A DNA stretch of 64,000 bases from Lachnospiraceae bacterium (lineage in GTDB: Bacteria > Bacillota > Clostridia > Lachnospirales > Lachnospiraceae), in NCBI GenBank assembly GCA_014804785.1, contig JAAUZD010000004.1:62001-126000 (forward strand). Direction: 5' to 3'. The position numbers and the translations under genes were made by a program. How positions within the stretch are numbered: position 1 is the first letter of the stretch; each line of letters opens with the position of its first letter. The notes under the pieces were generated by a model, which was not told the DNA's origin, did not search any database, and saw only the letters and a program-made list of their open reading frames with translations. Shown in pieces: positions 5,591 through 28,501 of the stretch.

Positions 5591-5679
5591 AGAATACGAA
5601 TTTCCATAAATGCCTCATTTAGACCCTCTGAAAAATACAGAAGAATCCAAAAATATATCAATCATGACAATTATGAAAA

Positions 5680-5775
5680 TCAGCTTCCCTACGCCGGTAT
5701 TATCCGGTTCAGGTAATGAGGGTCAGTAAACACCTTTTAAGGCATATACAATCTCAGCTCATGCTCCCCTAGCGA
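5680..5775 (-). ncRNA. TPP riboswitch (THI element)
   Basis: On the minus strand the leader reads GGGGAGC, then GCTGAGA, GACCC, ACCTGA and CCGGATAATACCGGCGTAGGGA. These are the invariant blocks of the thiamine pyrophosphate riboswitch in the correct order. Binding of TPP should lower thiT expression. The aptamer ends about 90 bases before the hairpin that covers the thiT ribosome-binding site. Confidence 0.95.
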
Positions 5776-5798
5776 TCAATCTATTTTATTTTCATATA

Positions 5799-17806: not shown

Positions 17807-18092
17807 GGGATGGTGGGATGATGAGGGGAAGAGGAGGCGGGGAGGCTGGGGTTAGGGTTTCAGGTCTAATCTCCAAATCGGATTTCACTAACGGAATGGA
17901 TATGGGTGTTTCAAACCGGACGGGGCGGAGCCAGACGGCATCCTGCCTTATGGCTCCTAAAATCGCCCTCCATGGCGATTTTCCCCTGGGTATGTACCAT
18001 TCCGTAAGTGAAATTTCCGATTTTCCGCTATAGCCCTGAAACCCTAACCCCAGCCTCCCCGCCTCCTCTTCCCCTCATCATCCCACCATCCC
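17807..18092. repeat. Fold-back element 1 (family 1): 58-bp perfect inverted arms around a 170-bp core
   Basis: The arm at 17807-17864 is the exact reverse complement of 18035-18092 (58 of 58). The 170-bp core carries two hairpins. Read on the minus strand, the first is AAAATCGCC/GGCGATTTT at 17959-17982 with loop ATGGAG. The second is nested: GGAGCC/GGCTCC at 17927-17957 enclosing GGCA-GGA-TGCC. Further imperfect pairing joins the core to the arms (TTAGTGAAAT-type repeats). The core on this strand closely resembles that of element 2, whereas the arms do not. It fills the gap between the M24 peptidase gene and element 3, and no gene is visible. Confidence 0.9.
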
Positions 18093-18151
18093 TCTCTCCC
18101 AGAAGAAAAAGCTGAATTGGAATTGTGATCATAGCCTCGAGTCCTATCAAC

Positions 18152-18581
18152 GGCAAGCCTCATAGTGCGGTCTGGCAGCCCTGACACAGCCTCTCTGCCC
18201 TGGGATTAAGGATTCAAACAGCTGCCTAGGCGCAGCGTTATTGAGATTCCGGCGGGGCAGACAAAACATCCACTGCGGACCTATGTGCGGCGGTAAGAAG
18301 GACTAAGCATCCCATAGATAGATAGTTCAATGAGGACGCAACCGGCGTATTGGTCCATCCATGGACCAAGTTACGCCTTCGTCGGACATCCTGTCCGCCG
18401 ATTGCTGGGTATCGAGATGGGATACTAAGTCCTTCTAACCGCCTTCCATAAGCTCCGCAGCAGATGTTTTGTCTGCCCCGCCGGAATCTCAATAACGCTG
18501 CGCCTAGGCAGCTGTTTGAATCCTTAATCCCAGGGCAGAGAGGCTGTGTCAGGGCTGCCAGACCGCACTATGAGGCTTGCC
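18152..18581. repeat. Fold-back element 3 (family 2): 119-bp perfect inverted arms
   Basis: Positions 18152-18270 are the exact reverse complement of 18463-18581, a 119-bp perfect inverted repeat. Weaker pairing continues inward to about 18312/18420, including GGCGGTTAGAAGGACTTAG-like sequences. The head, read on the minus strand, has CGGACA-GGA-TGTCCG (18383-18397) and TTGGTCCA-TGGA-TGGACCAA (18350-18369), the latter extended by GGCGTA/TACGCC. The right arm ends 5 bases beyond the spoVAE stop codon, so spoVAE transcripts would run straight into it. The head matches element 4, but the arms do not. Confidence 0.92.
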
Positions 18582-18586
18582 CTCCC

Positions 18587-18943
18587 CTACTTCTTCATTT
18601 TGGGGTTGAAGATGAGGCTTGCAAGGTAGCCGAAAATCAAGGCCGCCGAGGTTCCCACCGCACCTGCCTTAAATCCACCGGAGAACAGTCCCATAAATCC
18701 ATCCTTATCTACTGCTTCCTTGACACCTTTCATCAGAACATTACCAAATCCAAGAAGCGGAACAGATGCTCCTGCTCCCGCAAACTCAACAAAAGACTGA
18801 TACCAGCCGAACACACCGATAATCGCCCCCAGACAGACCAGCAGCACCATGATTCTACCGGGCATCATCTTTGTCTTTTCCATTAAAATCTGAACCAGAG
18901 CGCAAATCAGCCCTCCTATCCAGAATGCATTAAAATAATCCAT
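18587..18943 (-). CDS. spoVAE: Stage V sporulation protein AE (SpoVAE/SpoVAEb)
   Basis: SpoVAE is an inner spore-membrane component of the SpoVA channel, which carries Ca-dipicolinic acid into the forespore and out at germination. The 118-residue size is right for the family. Three to four membrane helices are visible, with the conserved segments AFWIGGLICALVQILMEKT, the AGAGASVPLLGFGNVLMKGVKEAV signature (also seen in SpoVAC as GGAGALVPITGFANSV) and AGAVGTSAALIFGYLASLIF. In most spore formers it follows spoVAD directly. Here it stands alone, 8.5 kb from spoVAD, between fold-back elements 3 and 4, with its own promoter-like sequence at 18995-19023. A GGAGGACGACG ribosome-binding site precedes the ATG. 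Confidence 0.92.
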   Translation of the reverse strand: MDYFNAFWIGGLICALVQILMEKTKMMPGRIMVLLVCLGAIIGVFGWYQSFVEFAGAGASVPLLGFGNVLMKGVKEAVDKDGFMGLFSGGFKAGAVGTSAALIFGYLASLIFNPKMKK

Positions 18944-18994
18944 CGTCGTCCTCCATTTTTACAACATTCCTTCTGTCGGATTGTTTTCATGGAT

Positions 18995-19023
18995 TATTAT
19001 ACGCATTTTCCCACCTGTTATAC
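18995..19023 (-). promoter_or_regulatory. Forespore-sigma-like promoter of spoVAE
   Basis: On the minus strand GTATA (19023-19019) lies 17 bases before TATAATA (19001-18995). Forespore sigma F/G promoters use a G-N-A-T-A/R -35 and a CAT-N-N-TA-like -10. The -10 here also fits sigma A, but no TTGACA-like -35 is present. Confidence 0.4.
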
Positions 19024-19050
19024 TGCTTTTGTCTGCCCTAGATCATCTCA

Positions 19051-19382
19051 CAAGTCATGGGACGAGACATCATCTGCTTCATCGACGGCATACCTCCCAG
19101 AGACAGAGCGCATAAAAAATCTGCACCGAACCTTATGGGAAGCGGTTAGAATGACTTAGCATCCTCTGATACTCAGCAATTGGCGGACAGGATGTCCGCC
19201 AAAGGCGTAATTTGGTCCATGGATGGACCAATACGCCGGTTGCGTCAACATGGATGTATCTATCCGAGGGGATGCCTAGTCATTCTTACCGCTGTACATA
19301 GGTTCGGTGCGGACTTTTTATGTGCTCTGTCTCTGGGAGGTATGCCATCGATGAAGCAGATGATTTCCCGTCCCATGACTTG
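19051..19382. repeat. Fold-back element 4 (family 2): about 83-bp near-perfect inverted arms
   Basis: 19051-19133 and 19300-19382 are inverted copies with about six mismatches. Inside, GCGGTTAGAATGACT (19142-19156) pairs with AGTCATTCTTACCGC further right. The head carries a 9-bp hairpin with loop GGA (19181-19201, CGGACA-GGA-TGTCCG) and TTGGTCCA-TGGA-TGGACCAA (19212-19231) enclosed by GGCGTA/TACGCC. The element ends 11 bases after the stop codon of the MBL-fold gene and about 100 bases upstream of spoVAE. The head is closely similar to that of element 3, and the outer arms are unrelated. Confidence 0.9.
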
Positions 19383-19393
19383 CGGAAATTACA

Positions 19394-20134
19394 TCATACC
19401 CGCAAGAGGAATTCTCTGTTTTGCTCCGAAACTTCTCTGATTCGCTCGGCAAAGCGTTTTCCGGTTCCGGTCTGTTTGTATCTTTTGATTACATCATAAT
19501 CTTCCCACATGTGCATGGGGAATATGTTTTTGGCTGGTACTTTTTGTAAAAAGTAGTCCATCCCATAGAGGTAACCTGACTCAAGTCTTGGGTCAAGCAC
19601 GACGAAAGCAATATCAAATTCTCTTCCCGCAATTTTGTCAATTTCTGTCTGATATGCTTTCTCCATCTGCTCATTCCAGCTTTTGGGTTCTTCTTCCCAA
19701 TACCAATGATTCAAATCTCCGGCGTGGTAGATGGAAATATCTCCGATTCTGACCAGAAAGGCAACTCCCTGATCTGTGGACCGGAGTGTTTCAATCTCAA
19801 AATCTTTTTTGGCATCCTGATAAGTCTCGCTGCCCTTCATCCGCACCATCCTTGATAAAATATCAGGTGCGATCCCTTTTCGTTCCAGATATTTTTCATT
19901 TAATTTAATATCATTACCAACAAAATAGTAAGTATTTTTTGATATTTTTTCCGCCCACTCAAGAGTTTTTAGCTGAAAATGGTCTTGATGCTTATGGCTG
20001 AAGAATAGAATCAGTTGTTTCTCCTTGGGGATAAAAGGTATAAAGTCTTCCGGCGTGCTGTAATCAAAGATCAGCACGTATTCATCCAGTTCCACTGCGA
20101 AGCCGCTGTGATACAGATAAGTCACCTTGACCAT
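19394..20134 (-). CDS. MBL-fold metal-dependent hydrolase (UlaG-like)
   Basis: This 246-residue metallo-beta-lactamase-fold protein begins VKVTYLYHSGFAVELDEYVLIFDY, the usual start of UlaG-like hydrolases. The metal site HxHxDH appears as FSHKHQDHF near residue 67, a later ISIYHAGDLNHW provides the next His/Asp, and FPMHMWEDY near the C-terminus supplies the last His. The substrate is unknown; relatives act on lactones, phosphodiesters or N-acyl compounds. Its ATG at 20134 overlaps the last codons of the GH31 gene by 13 bases, so the two are translationally linked. Fold-back element 4 begins just after its stop codon. Confidence 0.82.
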   Translation of the reverse strand: MVKVTYLYHSGFAVELDEYVLIFDYSTPEDFIPFIPKEKQLILFFSHKHQDHFQLKTLEWAEKISKNTYYFVGNDIKLNEKYLERKGIAPDILSRMVRMKGSETYQDAKKDFEIETLRSTDQGVAFLVRIGDISIYHAGDLNHWYWEEEPKSWNEQMEKAYQTEIDKIAGREFDIAFVVLDPRLESGYLYGMDYFLQKVPAKNIFPMHMWEDYDVIKRYKQTGTGKRFAERIREVSEQNREFLLRV

Positions 20135-22425
20135 ATCATTTCCCCTGTCCTTATTTCTATTCGTCCATACCCACGATAGCCTTCATGCAGCTTTTCTACT
20201 TCTACCTGTCCGTTTCTATTTTTAATTTCATATTCGTTGAAAGCCCCCTGGCGATACTGGAAATCTTCTCCATTATCCTGATAATGCCGGTAGCTTCCTT
20301 CTCCGGGATATGCCTCTAAGATCAAAAGTTCATCCTTATCCTCTCCAACATGCATTCTTACCGGATATTTAGGGATGACGGCTCCCGCCTTCACGTAAAT
20401 AGGGCATAAGTCAAGAGGTGCCGTTCTGACAAAGAAGGACTTCCCTTCTTTCTTTTCTCCGGTCCAATAGTCATACCAGATGCCTTCCGGGAGATAAACC
20501 ATTTTTTCTCTCGCGCCCTGCTCTACCACCGGGGCAATCAGCATCCGGTCACCCAGCATGAACTCGTCATTTCTATTTTTAACGTTTTCATCCCTTTCAT
20601 ATTCCAGAACCAGCGGACGCATCATCGGAATGCCCGTAAGCTCACATTCACGCATCAAATCATATAGATAAGGGAGAAGTTCATAGCGCAGGTTCAGATA
20701 CTTTCTGCTGATTTCTAATACTTCCCCATCAAACTGCCACGGTTCCTGCACTCTGCATCCCTGTGCGCAGTGATCCCTAAAAAGCGGTGAAAAACAGCCC
20801 AGCTGAATCCATCTTGCAAACAGCTCCGGCGTACAGTCACTGCCGAAACCACCCACATCTGTCCCTATAAAGTTCATGCCGGACATACCTAAATTGCACA
20901 TCTGGGGAATTGCCATACGGATGTGGGACCAGATGCTGTGGTTGTCACCGGTCCATCCGGTGGTATATTTCTGAGAACCGCTATAACATGCCCTTGTAAT
21001 CACGAAAGGACGTTTACCGGTCAATTCCTTCCAGCCCTCATAGGTTGCCTTTGCCATGTTGTGACCGTAGATATTATGCACTTGAGAATGGGGTGCCTGC
21101 ACATCCTCATCCGTAAACACCACATCATCCGGCAGCGGCCCTCTAAAGCTTGCAGGTTCGTTCATATCATTCCATACCCCGGACACGCCCATATCAATCA
21201 GGAATTTCTGTTTTTCTCCCCACCATCTGCGTACTTTGGGATCACCAAAATCAGGATATACGGCATCTCCCGGCCACACTTCATTGACGTAAATCTCCCC
21301 TTCCGGTGTCTTTGCAAAGTATCCGTTTTTAACCCCCTCTTCATAGACGTAATAATCTTTCTCAACCTTTACGCCGGGGTCAATAATGGTCACTGCTTTG
21401 ATTCCCATATCTTTAAAATCAGAGATCACCTTTGCGCCGTCTTCATAAGTTTCCTGATTCCATGTAAACACTTTGTAATGATCCATATAATCAATATCAA
21501 AATGAATACAGTCACAGGGCAGTTGATGCTTCTTCATGCCCTCTGCAATGCTGCGGATTTCCTCTTCTGATTCATACCCCCATCTGGACTGATGGAATCC
21601 TAAGGTCCATAGCTGCTGCATGGGCGCTCTGCCGGTCAACCATGTGTAATCGGATATTACTTCCTTAAGACTCTCGCCTCCGATAAAGTAATAATCCAGA
21701 TTTCCCGCATCTGCGCCGAACACATAGTATGCATCGGATTCTTTTCCCAGATCAAAGTATGTTTTATTATGATTGTCAAAGAAAATCCCGTAGGCGCCTT
21801 TTTCTTTTAACACAAGCATAAAAGGGATACTCTTATACAAAGACTTAAAATTATCCTCATGAGGATCCGGAATATCTGAATTCCACATCTCGTATTCATA
21901 GTGCCTTTTATTCAGGACACCCGTTTTATCACCCAGACCGTAAATACAATCCTTTCCTTCAAGACTCCTGATTTCCTGTATATTGTAATCGTAAGCTGCC
22001 CTTCCGGATGCATCGTGCCCTTCCTTCGCCAAGAGCTGCAGTGCCGCCTGGCTGGGTGCGTCGCTCCTTTTCCTGCCACCTCTATAGGAAAGGCTTAAAG
22101 GTGTTCCTTCACAATCATAGAAATCTACTGTAAAATTATCACCGACTATTGCGGTCAAATACTTTGTCCTGATAATGACACCTGATTCCTCCCATGACAC
22201 GCTTTCCAGTTTTCCATTTTCTGGATTTTCCCTCTGATGAGGCTGCTTCTCCAATTCTCCTTCAATGGCTCTGGAGCGATGTCCCATACCGGTATAGTCA
22301 ATGAACACGTTAAAAATATAGTCTGAAATCACTTCTACGCAAGGCTCTTTTCCATCTCTGCTGCCTTCATATTGAAAATAAACTTTCTGCCCATCTACAC
22401 GATATTCCTTTAATTTCTGATACAT
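20122..22425 (-). CDS. Alpha-glucosidase or alpha-xylosidase family enzyme (GH31)
   Basis: This 767-residue cytoplasmic GH31 hydrolase (no signal peptide) has the N-terminal beta-sandwich, followed by the catalytic barrel. The nucleophile Asp lies in GVWNDMNEP near residue 419 and the acid/base Asp in GWTGDNHSIWSH near residue 493. Other conserved segments are FHQSRWGYESEEEI, IHFDIDYMDHYKVFTW and NFIGTDVGGFG, which fit the alpha-glucosidase branch. The frame opens upstream to 22560, but GGAGG sits 5 bases before the ATG at 22425, and the longer version would overlap the DMT permease gene. It overlaps the MBL-fold gene downstream and probably belongs to the long transcript starting at spoVAA. 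Confidence 0.93.
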   Translation of the reverse strand: MYQKLKEYRVDGQKVYFQYEGSRDGKEPCVEVISDYIFNVFIDYTGMGHRSRAIEGELEKQPHQRENPENGKLESVSWEESGVIIRTKYLTAIVGDNFTVDFYDCEGTPLSLSYRGGRKRSDAPSQAALQLLAKEGHDASGRAAYDYNIQEIRSLEGKDCIYGLGDKTGVLNKRHYEYEMWNSDIPDPHEDNFKSLYKSIPFMLVLKEKGAYGIFFDNHNKTYFDLGKESDAYYVFGADAGNLDYYFIGGESLKEVISDYTWLTGRAPMQQLWTLGFHQSRWGYESEEEIRSIAEGMKKHQLPCDCIHFDIDYMDHYKVFTWNQETYEDGAKVISDFKDMGIKAVTIIDPGVKVEKDYYVYEEGVKNGYFAKTPEGEIYVNEVWPGDAVYPDFGDPKVRRWWGEKQKFLIDMGVSGVWNDMNEPASFRGPLPDDVVFTDEDVQAPHSQVHNIYGHNMAKATYEGWKELTGKRPFVITRACYSGSQKYTTGWTGDNHSIWSHIRMAIPQMCNLGMSGMNFIGTDVGGFGSDCTPELFARWIQLGCFSPLFRDHCAQGCRVQEPWQFDGEVLEISRKYLNLRYELLPYLYDLMRECELTGIPMMRPLVLEYERDENVKNRNDEFMLGDRMLIAPVVEQGAREKMVYLPEGIWYDYWTGEKKEGKSFFVRTAPLDLCPIYVKAGAVIPKYPVRMHVGEDKDELLILEAYPGEGSYRHYQDNGEDFQYRQGAFNEYEIKNRNGQVEVEKLHEGYRGYGRIEIRTGEMIWSR

Positions 22426-22477
22426 CTTTTCCTCCATTCCGAAACGCCGGCTGCATAAACTGCCATCCCACAGTCTA

Positions 22478-23383
22478 CTAAGCCTGCACTCCATCTCCCA
22501 TTCTTTTTTTATCGGGCAACTGTACCAAAATAACCGCCCCAAATACCAACGCACATCCAAGCAGCTCTTTTCTGCTAAGCGCCTGCCCCAGAATAATCCA
22601 TCCTGCCAACATGGAAACCACTGATTCCATAGATAAAATCAGAGAGGCAACCGTAGGGTCTAAGTCCTTCTGACCAATAATCTGTAAGGTATATGCCACA
22701 CCGCAGGACATGATTCCCGCATACGCAAGGGGAATGATTCCATTGATGAAACTGCCGATTTCCGGATGTTCAAACATAAATGCCAACACACTGCTTAAAA
22801 CTCCTGCAGTAAAGAACTGAATGCAGGAAAGCTCCACTCCATCTGCTCTCGGTGAAAAATAATCAATCACCAGTATGTGTATGGCGAAAAGAATCGCACA
22901 TACGAACACATAAGCATCTCCTCTGCCAAGTGCCAGCTTCTCATTCATGCACAAAAGATACATCCCAACCGCTGCAAGCGCCGCGCCAATCCAGACTCTT
23001 CCTGACACCTTTTTTCTCAAAAAAATCCCCATAACAGGCACGATAATGATGTAAAGCGTGGTAATAAATCCTGCTTTTCCCACCGTTGTATACATGATAC
23101 CGAATTGCTGACACAAAGATGCCATGCCAAGCACCAGTCCGCAACAGATGCCTCCTGTAAGGGTAACACGCATCCCTGCCCTCGGAATCTGTCTGTCCTT
23201 ATCCCTTTTCCTCCGGATGATGACCAGCGGAAGGAGCACCACGCCGCCCATCAAAAATCTTGCTCCGTTAAATGAAAAGGGCCCCATATAATCCATCCCC
23301 ACACTTTGCGCCACAAAAGCCACTCCCCAGATGGCAGCCGCTAAAAGCAACAAAAAACTGCTTCTTATAGATTTCTTTCTCAT
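22478..23383 (-). CDS. DMT superfamily transporter (two EamA domains)
   Basis: This 301-residue integral membrane protein has about ten helices in two EamA repeats. The first repeat starts LLLLAAAIWGVAFVAQSVGMDYMGPFSFNGARFLMGG, and the second contains YAGIMSCGVAYTLQIIGQKDLDPTVASLILSMESVVSMLAGWIILGQALSRKELLGCALVFGAVIL. Members export metabolites or amino acids, and specificity cannot be read from the sequence. It lies between aroK and the GH31 gene on the same strand with gaps of about 50 bases, so it is likely cotranscribed. The short C-terminal tail (QLPDKKRMGDGVQA) is cytoplasmic. Confidence 0.88.
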   Translation of the reverse strand: MRKKSIRSSFLLLLAAAIWGVAFVAQSVGMDYMGPFSFNGARFLMGGVVLLPLVIIRRKRDKDRQIPRAGMRVTLTGGICCGLVLGMASLCQQFGIMYTTVGKAGFITTLYIIIVPVMGIFLRKKVSGRVWIGAALAAVGMYLLCMNEKLALGRGDAYVFVCAILFAIHILVIDYFSPRADGVELSCIQFFTAGVLSSVLAFMFEHPEIGSFINGIIPLAYAGIMSCGVAYTLQIIGQKDLDPTVASLILSMESVVSMLAGWIILGQALSRKELLGCALVFGAVILVQLPDKKRMGDGVQA

Positions 23384-23429
23384 TTATCTCCCCTTGCATA
23401 TCACAGGCTTTATCTGCGATACTGCTGAT

Positions 23430-23942
23430 TCAATGTACCTTATATTTTTCTACAATTTCTTCCATTACATCACGGATATCTCTGCCCGTGCAGGAAACCA
23501 CGATATCCGCATATTTTTCGTATAAAGGTATTCTCTCTTCATAAAGTTCCTTCAAAGTCATTCCTTCCTTTAGGACGACTCCTCTCTCATGAAGATCTCC
23601 CAACCGCTTTTCCAATTCCTCAAAGGCAAGCTCCAGGTACACGATTTGTCCTATTTGCCGGAAATGAGCCATAGCTTCCTTTCCATAAACGGCGCTTCCT
23701 CCTGTTGCAATCACAGCACTATCTGCCAGAATGGACGCATTTACTTCATTTTCAAGCATGATAAAACCTGCTTCACCCCTCTCCTCAATCAGTTGGTGAA
23801 GCAGTTTCCGACATCTTTCTTGAATTACCAGGTCGGAGTCGATAAACTGATATCCCAGCTTTTTGGCAAGCACTACGCCCACCGTACTCTTCCCCGAACC
23901 GGGCATTCCTATCAATATGATGTTTTTCATTTTCCCGTTCAT
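23430..23942 (-). CDS. aroK: Shikimate kinase
   Basis: AroK phosphorylates shikimate at the 3-hydroxyl in aromatic amino acid biosynthesis. The 170-residue length is typical. Walker A is at residues 12-19 (GMPGSGKS). The shikimate-binding Asp lies in FIDSDLVIQERC, and the glycine motif IATGGSAVYG follows. The usual second site arginine cluster is less obvious (EKRLGDLHERGVVL), so activity on another small substrate is possible, though the overall match to the family is good. The ATG at 23942 begins immediately after the ridA stop codon. Other aromatic-pathway genes are not present in this window. Confidence 0.85.
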   Translation of the reverse strand: MNGKMKNIILIGMPGSGKSTVGVVLAKKLGYQFIDSDLVIQERCRKLLHQLIEERGEAGFIMLENEVNASILADSAVIATGGSAVYGKEAMAHFRQIGQIVYLELAFEELEKRLGDLHERGVVLKEGMTLKELYEERIPLYEKYADIVVSCTGRDIRDVMEEIVEKYKVH

Positions 23943-24320
23943 CTACTTTACTACTGCGATCACTTCTACTTCACAGAGCACATTCTTTGGAAGTTCCTTC
24001 ACTGCAACACAGCTTCTTGCCGGTCTGCCTGTGAAGTATTGCTCATAAACGCTGTTGAAAGCGGCAAAATCAGACATTTCTGAAAGAAAGCACGTGGTCT
24101 TCACCACGCTCTCAAAATCTGCGCCGGCTTCCTTCAAAATTTCTCCTACATTTTCCATCACCTGCTTTGCCTGTACAGTAATATCTCCTTTAGCGATATC
24201 CCCAGTTTCAGGTATGATGGGAATCTGCCCTGATGCAAACAAAAAACCGTTTGCGATGATGCCTTGTGAATAAGGACCTATGGCCGCGGGTGCTTTCGTT
24301 GTTGACACTTTAGTTAACAT
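23943..24320 (-). CDS. ridA: RidA family reactive imine/enamine deaminase
   Basis: RidA hydrolyses reactive 2-aminoacrylate and related imines made by PLP enzymes. The 125-residue protein has the full family pattern: APAAIGPYSQGIIANGFLFASGQIPI at the N-terminus, KTTCFLSEMSDFAAFNSVYEQYF in the middle, and the catalytic arginine in GRPARSCVAVKELPKN near residue 106, followed by CEVEVIAV. The start ATG at 24320 follows GAGGAGGAAG. It ends where aroK begins and starts 11 bases after the 94-residue gene, so it is inside the spoVAA transcript. Confidence 0.93.
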   Translation of the reverse strand: MLTKVSTTKAPAAIGPYSQGIIANGFLFASGQIPIIPETGDIAKGDITVQAKQVMENVGEILKEAGADFESVVKTTCFLSEMSDFAAFNSVYEQYFTGRPARSCVAVKELPKNVLCEVEVIAVVK

Positions 24321-24331
24321 AACTTCCTCCT

Positions 24332-24616
24332 CTAATCTTCCTCAAACTCCGCCGTCACATAAAATCCCCGTTCATTCTCAATAATGCTTATCACTTTTCC
24401 TTTTCTTGCAAGCATTCTCTCTCTGAAGGGAAAATTTCCTGACATGGCAAGAGAGGGATCAATCGTATAATAGTAATTGCTGGGAAGCACACCTTCCGTT
24501 ACCGTGATTTCCTGCCCTTCTTCCAAAAGACCGGGACGCTCCATCTTAAACTCCATCCTTCGCATGTGCATTCCTCCATCCGTATCTATTGTAATAGTCT
24601 TTGGTAATTTTTTCAA
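24332..24616 (-). CDS. Conserved-looking 94-residue protein of unknown function
   Basis: I recognise no family. The protein is soluble and rich in beta-prone segments (KTITIDTDGGMHMRRMEFKM, GQEITVTEGVLPSNYYYTID, RKGKVISIIENERGFYVTAEFEED), suggesting a small beta-barrel fold with a KOW- or SH3-like ending. It is plainly a real gene: it starts 5 bases after the spoVAB stop codon, ends 11 bases before ridA, and has normal codon use. The position behind spoVAA-spoVAB suggests expression in the forespore, but nothing in the sequence indicates a germination role. Confidence 0.7.
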   Translation of the reverse strand: MKKLPKTITIDTDGGMHMRRMEFKMERPGLLEEGQEITVTEGVLPSNYYYTIDPSLAMSGNFPFRERMLARKGKVISIIENERGFYVTAEFEED

Positions 24617-24621
24617 TCCCT

Positions 24622-25116
24622 CTATTGTCCCGACAGAAAAATTCCCTCTGCAAAATAAACAAGGCTTCCCGCCACTTTTCCAAGTGCAGCAGCTGCAATC
24701 GCTACACCAAGTCCATGCCTAAATCCGATTCTCCTTGAAAAAATGGGAATGGAGTCCAGCATCTCCGCAATAGCAAGGGCAAGGCATCCCACGAACATGC
24801 CGGCAAAAAGCCCCCATATAATGAAAAAAGCATTGCCCATCCACTTCCAGATCAGCACCGTTTCCGCCCCAAAAATCTGCCTGGACAAGATAAAACGACC
24901 AATCTGCGCATAGTCGGAAAACACACTGAAAAAGCCTCCTACGATTGTCCCAAACACCACAGCTTCCTCCAGAACAAATACCTTTTTTGCCACATGCATT
25001 TTCCCTGCAAACCTGGGGATCAGTCCTACCGATACAAATACGGTAAACACTCCAGCCGAAGCCAGCAGTCCGAAGCTGAGCCCGCAGATTGCCATAAAAA
25101 GCTGTTTAAGAAACAT
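24622..25116 (-). CDS. spoVAB: Stage V sporulation protein AB (SpoVAB)
   Basis: SpoVAB is a membrane component encoded with the SpoVA DPA channel, required in Bacillus only under some conditions. The 164-residue protein has five hydrophobic helices, with GLSFGLLASAGVFTVFVSVGLIPRF, AVVFGTIVGGF, GNAFFIIWGLFAGMFVGCLALAIAEMLDSIPIFSRRIGF and LGVAIAAAALGKVAGSLVYF. The IPIFSRR motif before the last helix is a hallmark of the family. The frame is open to 25149, but the ATG at 25116 overlaps the spoVAA end by 11 bases (ATGTTTCTTAA), a typical coupled junction, and lines up better with the family N-terminus. Confidence 0.9.
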   Translation of the reverse strand: MFLKQLFMAICGLSFGLLASAGVFTVFVSVGLIPRFAGKMHVAKKVFVLEEAVVFGTIVGGFFSVFSDYAQIGRFILSRQIFGAETVLIWKWMGNAFFIIWGLFAGMFVGCLALAIAEMLDSIPIFSRRIGFRHGLGVAIAAAALGKVAGSLVYFAEGIFLSGQ

Positions 25117-25735
25117 CAATTGTCTTTCCCTCCCTGTCTGCCGTTTCAATGAGCGCTTTATTTACATCTGTTTCATAAACCCGCATCTCTACCTCTATAG
25201 GTGTGGGATCCTTTGTAATCCTTCTGCCGCCAATATGGTTAAAAAACAGGATGATACCCACTGCCAGACCAATAGAATAGGAAACCTCCAGAATGCTGTA
25301 GCCGTCTGAAGGATACCCCATGACCAGTTCATAGATTCTGGAAAATATTTTATTGATGCTAATATCATTGTGAAACGCCATGACAGTAAATCCTGGTCCG
25401 AAAAAACTAATCACGGCTACAAATACAAGCTTCAACCACTGGACCGGTCCCTTATGCCGATTCACATTGACAAGTTCAATCAACGTTGCATTTTCTCCCA
25501 AATTCTCCACAGATACGCCGGGACACTCACTTTCAATCAGCTCGATTACTTTTAATATACTGATGACCTGACGCTTTTTTTCTTTTTCATGAAACTGATG
25601 GATTTTTAGGGACTTTGCTTTTGCACAAACGTTTTTGTCTGCACAATAAAGGGAGGCAATATCCTTCACACATACGCGCTCTTCCATTACCTCCGCATTT
25701 TGTTCTGCTTTTAAATATAACACTGTATTTGCCAT
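25106..25735 (-). CDS. spoVAA: Stage V sporulation protein AA (SpoVAA)
   Basis: SpoVAA is the first product of the classical spoVA operon. It has a soluble N-terminal region and a C-terminal membrane part. This 209-residue copy has the family N-terminus (VLYLKAEQNAEVMEERVCVKDIASLYC) and a segment ending VISILKVIELIESECPGVSVENLGENATLIEL, typical of SpoVAA. Two hydrophobic helices follow (LKLVFVAVISFFGPGFTVMAFHNDI and YSIGLAVGIILFFNHIGG). GGGAGG precedes the ATG at 25735. A well-formed forespore-type promoter lies at 25771-25800. It heads a run of eight minus-strand genes (spoVAA, spoVAB, 94-residue gene, ridA, aroK, DMT, GH31, MBL). Confidence 0.9.
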   Translation of the reverse strand: MANTVLYLKAEQNAEVMEERVCVKDIASLYCADKNVCAKAKSLKIHQFHEKEKKRQVISILKVIELIESECPGVSVENLGENATLIELVNVNRHKGPVQWLKLVFVAVISFFGPGFTVMAFHNDISINKIFSRIYELVMGYPSDGYSILEVSYSIGLAVGIILFFNHIGGRRITKDPTPIEVEMRVYETDVNKALIETADREGKTIDVS

Positions 25736-25770
25736 CCTAGGCCTCCCTGTCCACTTTCTTACCTACAGGC

Positions 25771-25800
25771 TAGTATGACCATTTACATTCATTTATATTC
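25771..25800 (-). promoter_or_regulatory. Sigma-G-like promoter of spoVAA
   Basis: On the minus strand GAATA (25800-25796) lies 18 bases before CATACTA (25777-25771). This is a close match to the forespore sigma G pattern (G-N-ATA, then CATNNTA). The expected start is about 30 bases upstream of the ATG. Confidence 0.6.
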
Positions 25801-25896
25801 CATCCTAAATTGCCTACGGCAATGGGATTTTGCATGCCTGAATCATATTCTTAGGTCTTGGCAGTAAATGCTTCGACCTGTACTGAATAGTTCCCT

Positions 25897-26976
25897 TTAC
25901 TCCAATATGAACTGCATCAGAACCGGGTCGTGGTCTGAAAGTTCATATCCCCAGTCCATATGATGATAAAAATTGACGTCTACATTGTTGGAAACGATAA
26001 ATCCATCCAGAGTAACCGTATAAGTCGTCTGTTCGTCATAAGGAGTCTCGGCACTCCGGCAAGTATTATGGGCAATATCCTCCTCATCCTTCGCACTGTC
26101 AATCCCCATGCGAAAACCTTCCGGAAGTCCCTCCCTCGGAAAGAGATAGGCCCACTCAGGTGCATTTTCCTCTCCTTCCTTCCTTAAATTGTGGTTAAAA
26201 TCGCCGCCGCAGATCACATAATTTCCTTTTTGATAATCAGACACCATATCCTCATACAGCATGGAAAGCTGCGCCTGCCGGATTTCATCACTCCCCCCGT
26301 AGGCTGAAGTATGTACATTATAAATACACAGATACCGTCCATTTTCTGTGGGAATACGCGAAATAGAATAACATCTGTCTAAATCCACAAGCTTACTGAA
26401 TGACTCAGAGATTGGAAGACTTCTTCGCATGGTATCCGTTATCTCCGCCCTGGAATAAGTAACCAGCCCACTCTTGTTGGCTCCATGAGGTTCCCACGGA
26501 GGGAAAAACAAAAAGGGCGAGTCATAATCCTGCGCAAAGTCATAGTAATACCCCTTCATAAACTGATTCAAAAGTTCCAGTTCATCCACATGGTAAGAGC
26601 GGGTACCATCGATATCTACCTCCTGCAAAAGGACAAAATCGGGATTTACATCATTGATGATCTCACCCATCCCACAGACGCCCGCCATGACGCTTTCCTT
26701 ATCCTTTCCCCATGAAGACTTCCCGCCGTCCATGAAAAAGCTGTAATCCTTACTATATGCGCCAAATCCGATATTGTATGTCATGATAAAGTAGGCCTGC
26801 CCCGGCACGATGGCAAAATCTTCATCAAAATAGGAATTCTCGCCGTTTCTCTTCACTTCTATCGTCAATTTGTCTGGCAGCCGGTAATAAGTGCCGAAGA
26901 CGTAGGCCGCATAACCGCCAAACAAAACGACTATCACAAGCAGGACAAGGAGCACTCTCTTTACAACCTTCTTCAC
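25897..26976 (-). CDS. Membrane-anchored endonuclease/exonuclease/phosphatase (EEP) family protein
   Basis: This 359-residue protein starts with a signal-anchor helix (VVKRVLLVLLVIVVLFGGYAAYVFG), so the catalytic domain is outside the membrane. The EEP motifs are complete: IMTYNIGFGAY, LLQEVDIDG with the metal-binding Glu, YNVHTSAYGG, CGGDFNHNL, and the terminal LSDHDPVLMQF. The family includes DNases, phosphoinositide phosphatases and sphingomyelinases, and the substrate is not evident. The start codon is GTG at 26976 (GAGGAA upstream). It is followed by a 160-base gap before spoVAA, so it may have its own transcript. Fold-back element 2 lies about 140 bases upstream. Confidence 0.85.
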   Translation of the reverse strand: MKKVVKRVLLVLLVIVVLFGGYAAYVFGTYYRLPDKLTIEVKRNGENSYFDEDFAIVPGQAYFIMTYNIGFGAYSKDYSFFMDGGKSSWGKDKESVMAGVCGMGEIINDVNPDFVLLQEVDIDGTRSYHVDELELLNQFMKGYYYDFAQDYDSPFLFFPPWEPHGANKSGLVTYSRAEITDTMRRSLPISESFSKLVDLDRCYSISRIPTENGRYLCIYNVHTSAYGGSDEIRQAQLSMLYEDMVSDYQKGNYVICGGDFNHNLRKEGEENAPEWAYLFPREGLPEGFRMGIDSAKDEEDIAHNTCRSAETPYDEQTTYTVTLDGFIVSNNVDVNFYHHMDWGYELSDHDPVLMQFILE

Positions 26977-27115
26977 TTCAATATTCCTCTTTCCTTTCTC
27001 AAAGTTCCAACCAAAGTTTTACCCTTTCAATATACCACAGTTCTAGCTTAACTTCCATCATAATTAGCGTTACTCTAGCCAGTTGCATAATTATCTTCGC
27101 GGCAGCGAAAATCCT

Positions 27116-27439
27116 GCCCTTGGGGATAGGGTGGTGCGGTGAGAAAGTGGAGACCGGATTCCCTGTGGGCTGGCACATTTTATGGTTTCAAGGCTCTGGC
27201 GGAAAATCGGCAATTTCACTTGCAGAATGGTTCAATGCCAGGGTAGCCCCGCCACGGATGGCGGGGCTAGGAGCCTCGAGGCAGGATGCCGACTGGCTCC
27301 GCCCCGTCCGCCATGAAACACCTATGCCCATTCTGTTAGTGAAATCCGATTTGAAGACGAGACTTGAAACCATAAAATGTACCAGCCCACAGGGAATCCG
27401 GTCTCCACTTTCTCACCGCACCACCCTATCCCCAAGGGC
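27116..27439. repeat. Fold-back element 2 (family 1): 77-bp inverted arms with one mismatch
   Basis: 27116-27192 and 27363-27439 are inverted copies differing at one base. The 170-bp core has an 11-bp hairpin with loop CGGA (27244-27269, TAGCCCCGCCA/TGGCGGGGCTA) and GGAGCC/GGCTCC (27270-27300) enclosing GGCA-GGA-TGCC. The core closely matches the reverse complement of the element 1 core over its whole length, whereas the arms share nothing. The element ends 24 bases beyond the spoVAD stop codon and occupies most of the 487-base gap to the EEP gene. Confidence 0.92.
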
Positions 27440-27463: not shown

Positions 27464-28501
27464 TTACCTACAGCTTACCAGTTCCACCCCATGTGCAATC
27501 CCCGGTATGCTCTGCCCCTCATTAAAGCTTGTCTTGGAAAGCAACGCCCCCGTAGGAACAAACAACACCCTCTTCCACTTTCCTTCCTCAAGCTGTTTCA
27601 AAATAAAAGCAGACAAAGTGACCGCGCTGCATCCGCATCCGCTGCCTCCCGCGTGGGCATCCTGGCTCTGATCGTAAATTTCCATACCGCAGTCCATATG
27701 CACCTTGGAAATATCCATCCCTTTCTCCCGCATCATATCCCAAAGTGCCTTCTGCCCCACACTTCCTAAATCTCCCGTAATGATCTTGTCATAATCGGAA
27801 GGAGTTCTTCCAAAATCCATCAGGTGATGATAAATGGTATCACAGGCAGCCGGCGCCATGCAGGCGCCCATGTTCATGGAATCCTTCAAGCCGAAATCCA
27901 CGATTTTTCCTATAGTCAGACCTGAAATCATTGCCCTGTCCTGCTCACTTTTGACACTGCTTAAGACAAATGCTCCGCTTCCTGTAACCGTCCAAGTGGC
28001 AGAAAGTGGTCTTTGATTTCCATATCCTAAAGGAAATCGGAATTCTTTCTCCGCGCTGGCAAAATGGCTGGATGTGACACATGCCGCATGCTCTGCCATT
28101 CCTCCTGCAATCATTACCGTTGCCATTGTCATTGTCAGCCCGCAGGTTGAGCAAGCTCCATACATTCCAATCAGCGGAATCTGAAAGGCTCCCAGACCAA
28201 AACTGCTGGCAATGGATTGTCCCAGAAGATCTCCTGCAAACAGATATTTGATGTCCTCATTCTTAAGTCCTGACTTTCCAATTGCAAGTGTAAGCGCCTC
28301 CTTCTGCAAGGTACTCTCTGCTTCCTCCCATGTTTCACAGCCAAACTTATCATCTCTCCCCACCACATCAAAACAGTCTCCAAAAGGTCCTTCTCCTTCC
28401 TTGGTTCCTGCCACTGATGCACTTGCTCTTATATAAACAGGTATCGGCACTTTAATGCTTCTCTGCCCCTGCTCAAAAATTGCTCCAACCGTTGCTTCCA
28501 T
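27464..28501 (-). CDS. spoVAD: Stage V sporulation protein AD (SpoVAD)
   Basis: SpoVAD is the peripheral, thiolase-fold protein that binds dipicolinic acid for the SpoVA channel. The 345-residue length is normal. Conserved family segments are SVAGTKEGEGPFGDCFD near the N-terminus, LFAGDLLGQSIASSFGL, the GACSTCGLTM region replacing the thiolase active site, FRFPLGYGNQRPLSATWTVTGSGAFVLS, and the C-terminal HAGGSGCGCSAVTLSAF. The ATG at 28501 is preceded by GGAGG and a T run. Normally spoVAD follows spoVAC. Here spoVAC is 2.9 kb away on the opposite strand, and spoVAD has its own promoter-like sequence and fold-back element 2 behind it. Confidence 0.95.
   Translation of the reverse strand: MEATVGAIFEQGQRSIKVPIPVYIRASASVAGTKEGEGPFGDCFDVVGRDDKFGCETWEEAESTLQKEALTLAIGKSGLKNEDIKYLFAGDLLGQSIASSFGLGAFQIPLIGMYGACSTCGLTMTMATVMIAGGMAEHAACVTSSHFASAEKEFRFPLGYGNQRPLSATWTVTGSGAFVLSSVKSEQDRAMISGLTIGKIVDFGLKDSMNMGACMAPAACDTIYHHLMDFGRTPSDYDKIITGDLGSVGQKALWDMMREKGMDISKVHMDCGMEIYDQSQDAHAGGSGCGCSAVTLSAFILKQLEEGKWKRVLFVPTGALLSKTSFNEGQSIPGIAHGVELVSCR

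Follow-up and report, generated by a model that had tools for sequence, protein, structure and literature searches.

TwoAYGGAY was introduced in 2010 as a candidate RNA motif (Weinberg et al., PMC2864571), and the accessible text of a later paper calls its function unknown and describes the external stem of its Rfam model as 'not well conserved' (PMC4333381). As far as the available text of two further papers goes, template switching between the arms of an inverted repeat homogenises the arms and inverts the spacer (PMC8604942), and both papers ascribe to this process not only the homogenisation of arms but also compensatory changes of several bases and the inversion of a spacer or loop (PMC8604942, PMC8794818). 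Here, we analysed a stretch of 64,000 nucleotides from a Lachnospiraceae bacterium (contig JAAUZD010000004.1, positions 62,001 to 126,000; the window), in which four TwoAYGGAY heads (Rfam family RF01731) each lie between two long inverted arms. Over their full length, these heads are alike to the motif that the literature, in its accessible parts, treats as RNA. The Rfam match rules out a wholly unknown element, and the view of an earlier note on this DNA, made from the sequence alone, that no described element has this design is wrong for the head. The head is already known and the outer arms are the new part: in the accessible main texts on TwoAYGGAY, supplements aside, we found no account of long arms that differ from copy to copy, of arms changing in concert, of inverted heads or of wobble symmetry. 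We propose, with a probability of roughly 0.7, that the elements are dispersed long-hairpin repeats, the arms of which are corrected at the level of DNA, with one arm copied from its partner.

A conserved head between copy-specific arms

All four window heads match the whole RF01731 model (1-168) in cmscan with 84.7-116.8 bits, the gathering cut-off being 43 bits, and the arms were aligned outward from the Rfam head. Element 1 (17807..18092, minus strand, 88.8 bits) has its head at 17868-18030, between a G-rich 5' arm at 18031-18092 and the partner arm at 17807-17867, with 60 matches over 62/61 nt. Element 2 (18152..18581, minus strand, 116.8 bits) has its head at 18282-18450 and arms at 18451-18581 and 18152-18281 (127 matches over 131/130 nt), the outer 119 nt of which are unbroken. 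On the plus strand, element 3 (19051..19382, 106.9 bits) combines a head at 19134-19300 with arms at 19051-19133 and 19301-19382 (76 matches over 83/82 nt), and element 4 (27116..27439, 84.7 bits) a head at 27197-27359 with arms at 27116-27196 and 27360-27439 (78 matches over 81/80 nt). The earlier note had reported four fold-back elements in two families; all four were found at these positions with self-complementary arms, and the heads indeed form two subfamilies, with 81% identity between elements 1 and 4 (subfamily 1) and 87% between elements 2 and 3 (subfamily 2). In the cmscan alignments, one AYGGAY hairpin of each element reads CAUGGAUG or near to it (CACGGAUG, CAUGGAGG), and the second is short by one base (CA-GGAUG). 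Folding of two of the elements gave z scores of -20.9 (element 1) and -34.4 (element 2) relative to 100 dinucleotide shuffles, values well outside chance expectation.

The design recurs in the window's own genome (G000), for which 41 copies were examined, 39 of them RF01731 matches and two from a DNA search. Arms of 36-156 nt flank 38 of these copies. Among the three armless ones, C41:31560 looks like a deletion that fused two neighbours still separate in the genome of a sister species (G009), C21:13123 looks like a deletion that cut the element on one side, with an intact copy in G009, and C8:40091 lies near a contig end. Across ten genomes of the genus, self-complementary arms were present in 165 of 168 copies examined, the 127 copies from outside G000 being full-length head matches among the matches listed. 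Arms in the genus are mostly 50-130 nt long and the head measures about 165 bp. Of the 37 genomes of the genus, 17 contain RF01731, each between 1 and 53 times, whereby a count is to be read as 'at least' wherever more than 55 candidates existed. In the family, at least 65 of 397 genomes carry it (best six candidates per genome, stricter filters), and 27 of 29 heads, taken one per genome from 29 genomes in 26 genera, are flanked by arms of at least 20 nt, eight of them by at least 40 nt; in this scoring, as in that of the genomes G339 and G416 below, the start of the arm was chosen as the best of 25 or 36 offsets, a procedure biased towards detecting arms. A head-pattern scan of the collection returned 42 stretches, from Lachnospiraceae metagenome assemblies and scattered others, and none of the seven that were scanned (L307, L314, L278, L280, L303, L306, L294) contained RF01731 at the gathering score.

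Heads and arms behave differently among copies. Among the 164 copies whose arms reach 30 nt or more, 20 pairs with heads 93-98% identical fell below the flank threshold for orthology, and two of these were rearranged orthologues. In the 18 pairs left, mean arm identity was 0.60, compared with 0.49 (sd 0.075) in 300 random pairs, and only two pairs shared arms at 0.75 or above; same-genome pairs with near-identical heads (n=12) did not exceed 0.62. Orthologous G000/G009 rows, on the other hand, had an arm identity of at least 0.90 in 11 of 15 cases. Since near-identical heads pair with arms of about 0.60 identity and the arms of orthologues mostly reach 0.90, we conclude that copies share or homogenise their heads but, for the most part, not their arms.

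The earlier description of the arms as unrelated between copies therefore applies to most copies, but not to all. Some G000 copies have related arms (80-83% identity over 78-83 nt), and the 8-mer TGTCATTT recurs in seven of the 38 own-genome arms (maximum of four in 200 shuffles); the arms of G035 or G020 showed no comparable 8-mer excess. In G339, a near-complete two-contig genome of another genus, two copies at different sites (L352 and L359) share 554 bp at 96.4% identity, comprising the head and both arms of about 190 nt. More repeats lie upstream of both hairpins at differing spacings, so that more than the hairpin, or a mosaic, may have been copied. Recurrence of arms in other copies, which the earlier note had named as the sign of a plain long-inverted-repeat transposon, is thus seen in G339 and rarely in the window's own genus; likewise, shared terminal inverted repeats as in miniature inverted-repeat transposable elements are present for copies in G339 and rare among own-genus copies. 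The L352 and L359 hairpins are young copies.

Concerted arm change and head inversion between sister species

For 18 of the 41 G000 copies, both flanks could be placed in the G009 loci examined, and 15 of these have arms that are comparable in both species; the three left out are window element 3, which is absent from the orthologous site in G009, and two copies armless in G000. At these 15 loci, 78 sites had changed in both arms with pairing kept, whereas 3.9 paired double changes are expected by chance if the arms are independent. Another 49 sites had changed in one arm and 11 in both arms without pairing, 963 were unchanged and paired, ten unchanged and unpaired, and 21 were skipped. Indels in 12 orthologous pairs comprised four in the left arm and three in the right arm, and three of these were mirrored. 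Hence, between species, the arms within one copy evolve jointly, and the copies themselves diverge from one another. With element 2 left out (14 pairs), the arms of G000 and G009 are identical at 899/1003 positions (89.6%) and the heads at 2229/2313 (96.4%).

The head itself can be turned round between the same arms. The clean cases are C26:348173 and C28:185886, where 161/166 and 161/165 bases are identical once the head is turned; at C41:37646 the inversion was judged from one flank. In the G009 counterpart of window element 2 (C4:80282), the outer arms are the same, and the inner arms and head are those of another lineage, turned. In total, inversions affect four of 18 distinct orthologous G000/G009 loci, i.e. 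the 15 loci of the concerted-change set and three more. Nearest to a caught event is C51:8432 in G000: here, the outer left arm is new, having been gained through a deletion, and a stretch of the right arm that is missing in G009 matches it at 10/11 nt, so that the newly gained outer arm appears to have been copied into its partner. Unmatched arms are found where a deletion fused two neighbours (C41:31560).

With arm-to-arm copying, no new insertion chemistry would be needed to explain why copies share a head and yet have arms that are self-complementary and differ from copy to copy. The elements may be pictured as dispersed hairpins without a gene of their own, each a conserved TwoAYGGAY head between two inverted arms. 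When the hairpin is extruded in replication or recombination, one arm would act as template for its partner, and any mutation in an arm would thus be either passed on or removed. A switch of strands across the loop would turn the head round. Arm sequence would then be nearly free to drift, with the head held by selection, by exchange between copies or by both; old copies would end up with unrelated arms, and young copies, as in G339, would still share them. Conversion or snap-back copying was one of the options raised in the earlier note, and it gains support from the concerted substitutions, the mirrored indels, the strand-symmetric mismatches (see below), the head inversions and C51:8432.

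The same note had also considered that each insertion makes its own arms by an inverted copy of its flank. Two comparisons fit this idea: the copies L186 and L184 of G035 have heads 98.2% identical and an arm identity of 0.60, and in the comparison of G035 L175 with G007 L271, an outer left arm occurs where the element is missing, which agrees with flank duplication or deletion alike. As a general rule, however, flank duplication finds no support, given arm ends and lengths that agree within 4 nt between the species at 12 of 15 loci, arms that are homologous between some copies and the G339 hairpin that recurs together with its arms of about 190 nt. Outer pieces of both arms remain at L177/L267, which looks like an empty site but is a deletion remnant. 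The proposed check on empty sites gave one case open to either explanation and one deletion, and we consider flank duplication very unlikely. One filled/empty site shows GATA, which is equally explained as slippage deletion, and the empty sites in G007 display no clear target-site duplication.

As to how the copying is done, RecA-dependent homologous recombination between arms or between copies, rather than polymerase template switching, might carry out both correction and inversion. With arms of 60-130 bp around a spacer of 160 bp, the elements are plausible substrates, and a crossover would produce an inverted head. Near-identical heads also occur between unrelated arms, and the head from another lineage between the same outer arms of element 2 in G009 looks like an exchange between copies. 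We nevertheless judge recombination quite unlikely to account for the data, as the apparent copying at C51:8432, for which there was no prior partner, is more simply explained by template switching.

Mismatch patterns at the DNA and RNA level

An RNA stem tolerates a G·T mismatch but not A·C. In the arms of 165 copies from ten genomes of the genus, we counted 142 G·T and 146 A·C mismatches, and the balance was similar across the family (29 vs 26 in 27 copies) and in G339 (26 vs 26). In contrast, the TPP riboswitch of the same genus, handled in the same way as the heads and represented by 30 of 40 matches listed, gave 38 G·T vs 5 A·C (p = 2.5e-7). Because G·T and A·C mismatches are equal in number, the arms carry no RNA signature. 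In the head stems, subfamily 2 showed 46 G·T vs 54 A·C (94 sequences), or 46:35 without one column that holds 19 A·C cells, and subfamily 1 showed 13 G·T vs 3 A·C (55 sequences; p = 0.02 on the assumption of independent cells, which they are not).

These counts bear on the possibility that the elements are functional RNAs, the arms of which co-vary by compensatory mutation under selection for base pairing. Rfam and the covariation papers, in their accessible parts, list TwoAYGGAY as RNA, a role in CsrA binding has been proposed in the available text of PMC4333381, CsrA is present in 33 of the 37 genomes of the genus, and the subfamily-1 head stems have the G·T excess. Against this stand the lack of such an excess in the arms and subfamily-2 heads, the divergence of the arms, which is about equal to that of the flanks, and the heads inverted at 4/18 orthologous loci. 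Moreover, the gene strands beside 36 G000 copies had no consistent orientation to the head in a crude longest-frame test, and no CsrA match was obtained in the high-copy genomes G005 (34 copies, 89% complete) and G035 (53 copies, 86% complete). We therefore regard selection on an RNA as unlikely, and the earlier suggestion that pairing itself is under selection is disfavoured by the absent G·T excess and by arms that diverge about as fast as the flanks.

Several points weigh against arm copying at the DNA level as we propose it. The subfamily-1 heads may hint at RNA-level constraint. The flanks of the orthologous pairs have a mean BLAST identity of 92.6%, but this value includes coding DNA and aligned parts only and is no clean neutral yardstick. 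According to the accessible text of PMC8794818, intrastrand template switching is expected to give G-C over C-G and U-A over A-U; the arms contain, as expected, G-C pairs over C-G pairs (3780 vs 2147, in 135 copies against 24), but A-T over T-A (2447 vs 1832), the reverse of the second expectation. The data also fit template switching, RecA-type conversion and hairpin cleavage with repair alike. Further, we relied on draft genomes for the window's own genus, of which at least three were assembled from metagenomes, and in a draft assembly bubble popping could inflate arm identity and the orientation of a head could be mis-assembled. There are Ns inside some G000 elements, and the arms in G339 are less perfect (901/1055 columns paired).

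That the near-perfect arms are largely an artefact of assembly, with some contigs ending at elements as a further point in its favour, is nonetheless most improbable. Both assemblies carry arms at the 15 orthologous loci, with ends within 4 nt at 12 of them and with species-specific sequence, and arms are likewise present in the single-contig genome G416 (four of seven heads scored) and the two-contig G339 (19 of 21 scored). From this we conclude that assembly did not create the design, although it could affect how perfect the arms are and some of the flips in the draft genomes.

Neighbourhood, implications and likeness to described systems

Copies within 1.5 kb of each other are divergent (-,+) in 23 of 26 cases from 17 genomes and never convergent; these genomes were hand-picked from listings, partly after pairs had been seen, and orthologous G000/G009 pairs were counted twice. 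In the three complete lists alone, nine of 12 cases are divergent (P = 0.0004). Examples are C15:62619-/63814+ in G000 and window elements 2 and 3. By eye, the open reading frame lists of ten spacers between paired copies, one of which, from G009, is orthologous to another, revealed no common cargo gene. In L368 and L369 of G339, the spacers between paired elements contain short repeated units that encode recurring peptides in several frames.

The flank 0-40 nt past the 3' (right) arm is C-rich and G-poor, with C at 0.35 and G at 0.11 in the first 20 nt. C exceeds G on this side in 135 of 152 copies, and the left side is not mirrored (G over C in 81/152). A strand composition keyed to the head, i.e. 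a G-rich left arm, was rejected as a polarity of the hairpin because the arms are inverted repeats and the statement is the same on both strands; only the C-rich flank past the right arm is linked to the head.

An IS200/IS605-like Y1 transposase was considered as mobiliser and rejected, since it had no link to copy number or position. Among the matches listed, none lies within 5 kb of a listed element. Its domain PF01797 occurs in 21 of 37 genomes of the genus, with none in G020 (43 copies) or G008 (11), and in G000 it is represented by one frame with a stop. The earlier statement that the window contains no transposase agrees with the ten neighbouring proteins scanned, among which there was none, although the claim extends to the whole window and the scan to those ten.

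The window elements lie close to genes, with gaps to the stop codon of the neighbouring gene of 5 nt (element 2), 11 nt (element 3) and 24 nt (element 4). The genes ending 5 and 24 nt from TwoAYGGAY elements belong to the SpoVAC/SpoVAEB family (18587-18943) and to SpoVAD (27464-28501), about 8.5 kb apart in the window. Elsewhere, the window contains a TPP riboswitch (5669-5780, minus strand), and the protein encoded at 13947-14843 matches Pfam PBECR4, a phage-type nuclease domain like Barnase, EndoU, colicin and RelE.

Covariation is the standard proof of conserved RNA structure. In this Rfam family, paired changes are abundant without a G·U signature and occur beside head inversions; a DNA mutational process can therefore imitate that proof. 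Tentatively, and with somewhat more doubt than confidence, we suggest that TwoAYGGAY as a whole is primarily a dispersed DNA hairpin element, with stems and Rfam covariation that stem largely from the copying of arms in replication and not from selection on RNA. If so, template switching would leave a natural record in these elements, as copied arms and inverted heads, and they would form a class of false positives in RNA discovery by covariation. The count of G·T vs A·C mismatches is a cheap test that can be applied to other hairpin-rich families, and since some genomes contain dozens of hairpins, these bacteria would also make it possible to measure the copying of arms and the inversion of spacers in nature.

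The palindromes of the Y chromosome undergo arm-to-arm gene conversion and their arms evolve in concert, as do those of TwoAYGGAY elements, but they are longer by orders of magnitude. Closer in size are the quasipalindromes shaped by template switching, for which the accessible text of PMC8604942 and PMC8794818 likewise describes homogenised arms, paired changes of several bases, inversion of the spacer or loop and G-C over C-G. The examples given there each concern one short stem (in yeast coding repeats, rRNA hairpins or microRNAs), whereas TwoAYGGAY elements form a dispersed family of many copies with arms of mostly 50-130 nt and spacers of 160 nt. In being numerous hairpins with a conserved core and inverted neighbours, they resemble the repetitive extragenic palindromes (REP), with the related REPIN and BIME, and their RAYT transposase, as far as the available part of PMC2817692 describes these. 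Unlike REP and REPIN, TwoAYGGAY elements are much longer, carry the conserved part on the loop side and have no strong end tag, and among the matches listed no Y1 transposase lies near the elements listed; their divergent neighbour pairs, for their part, resemble inverted REP doublets.

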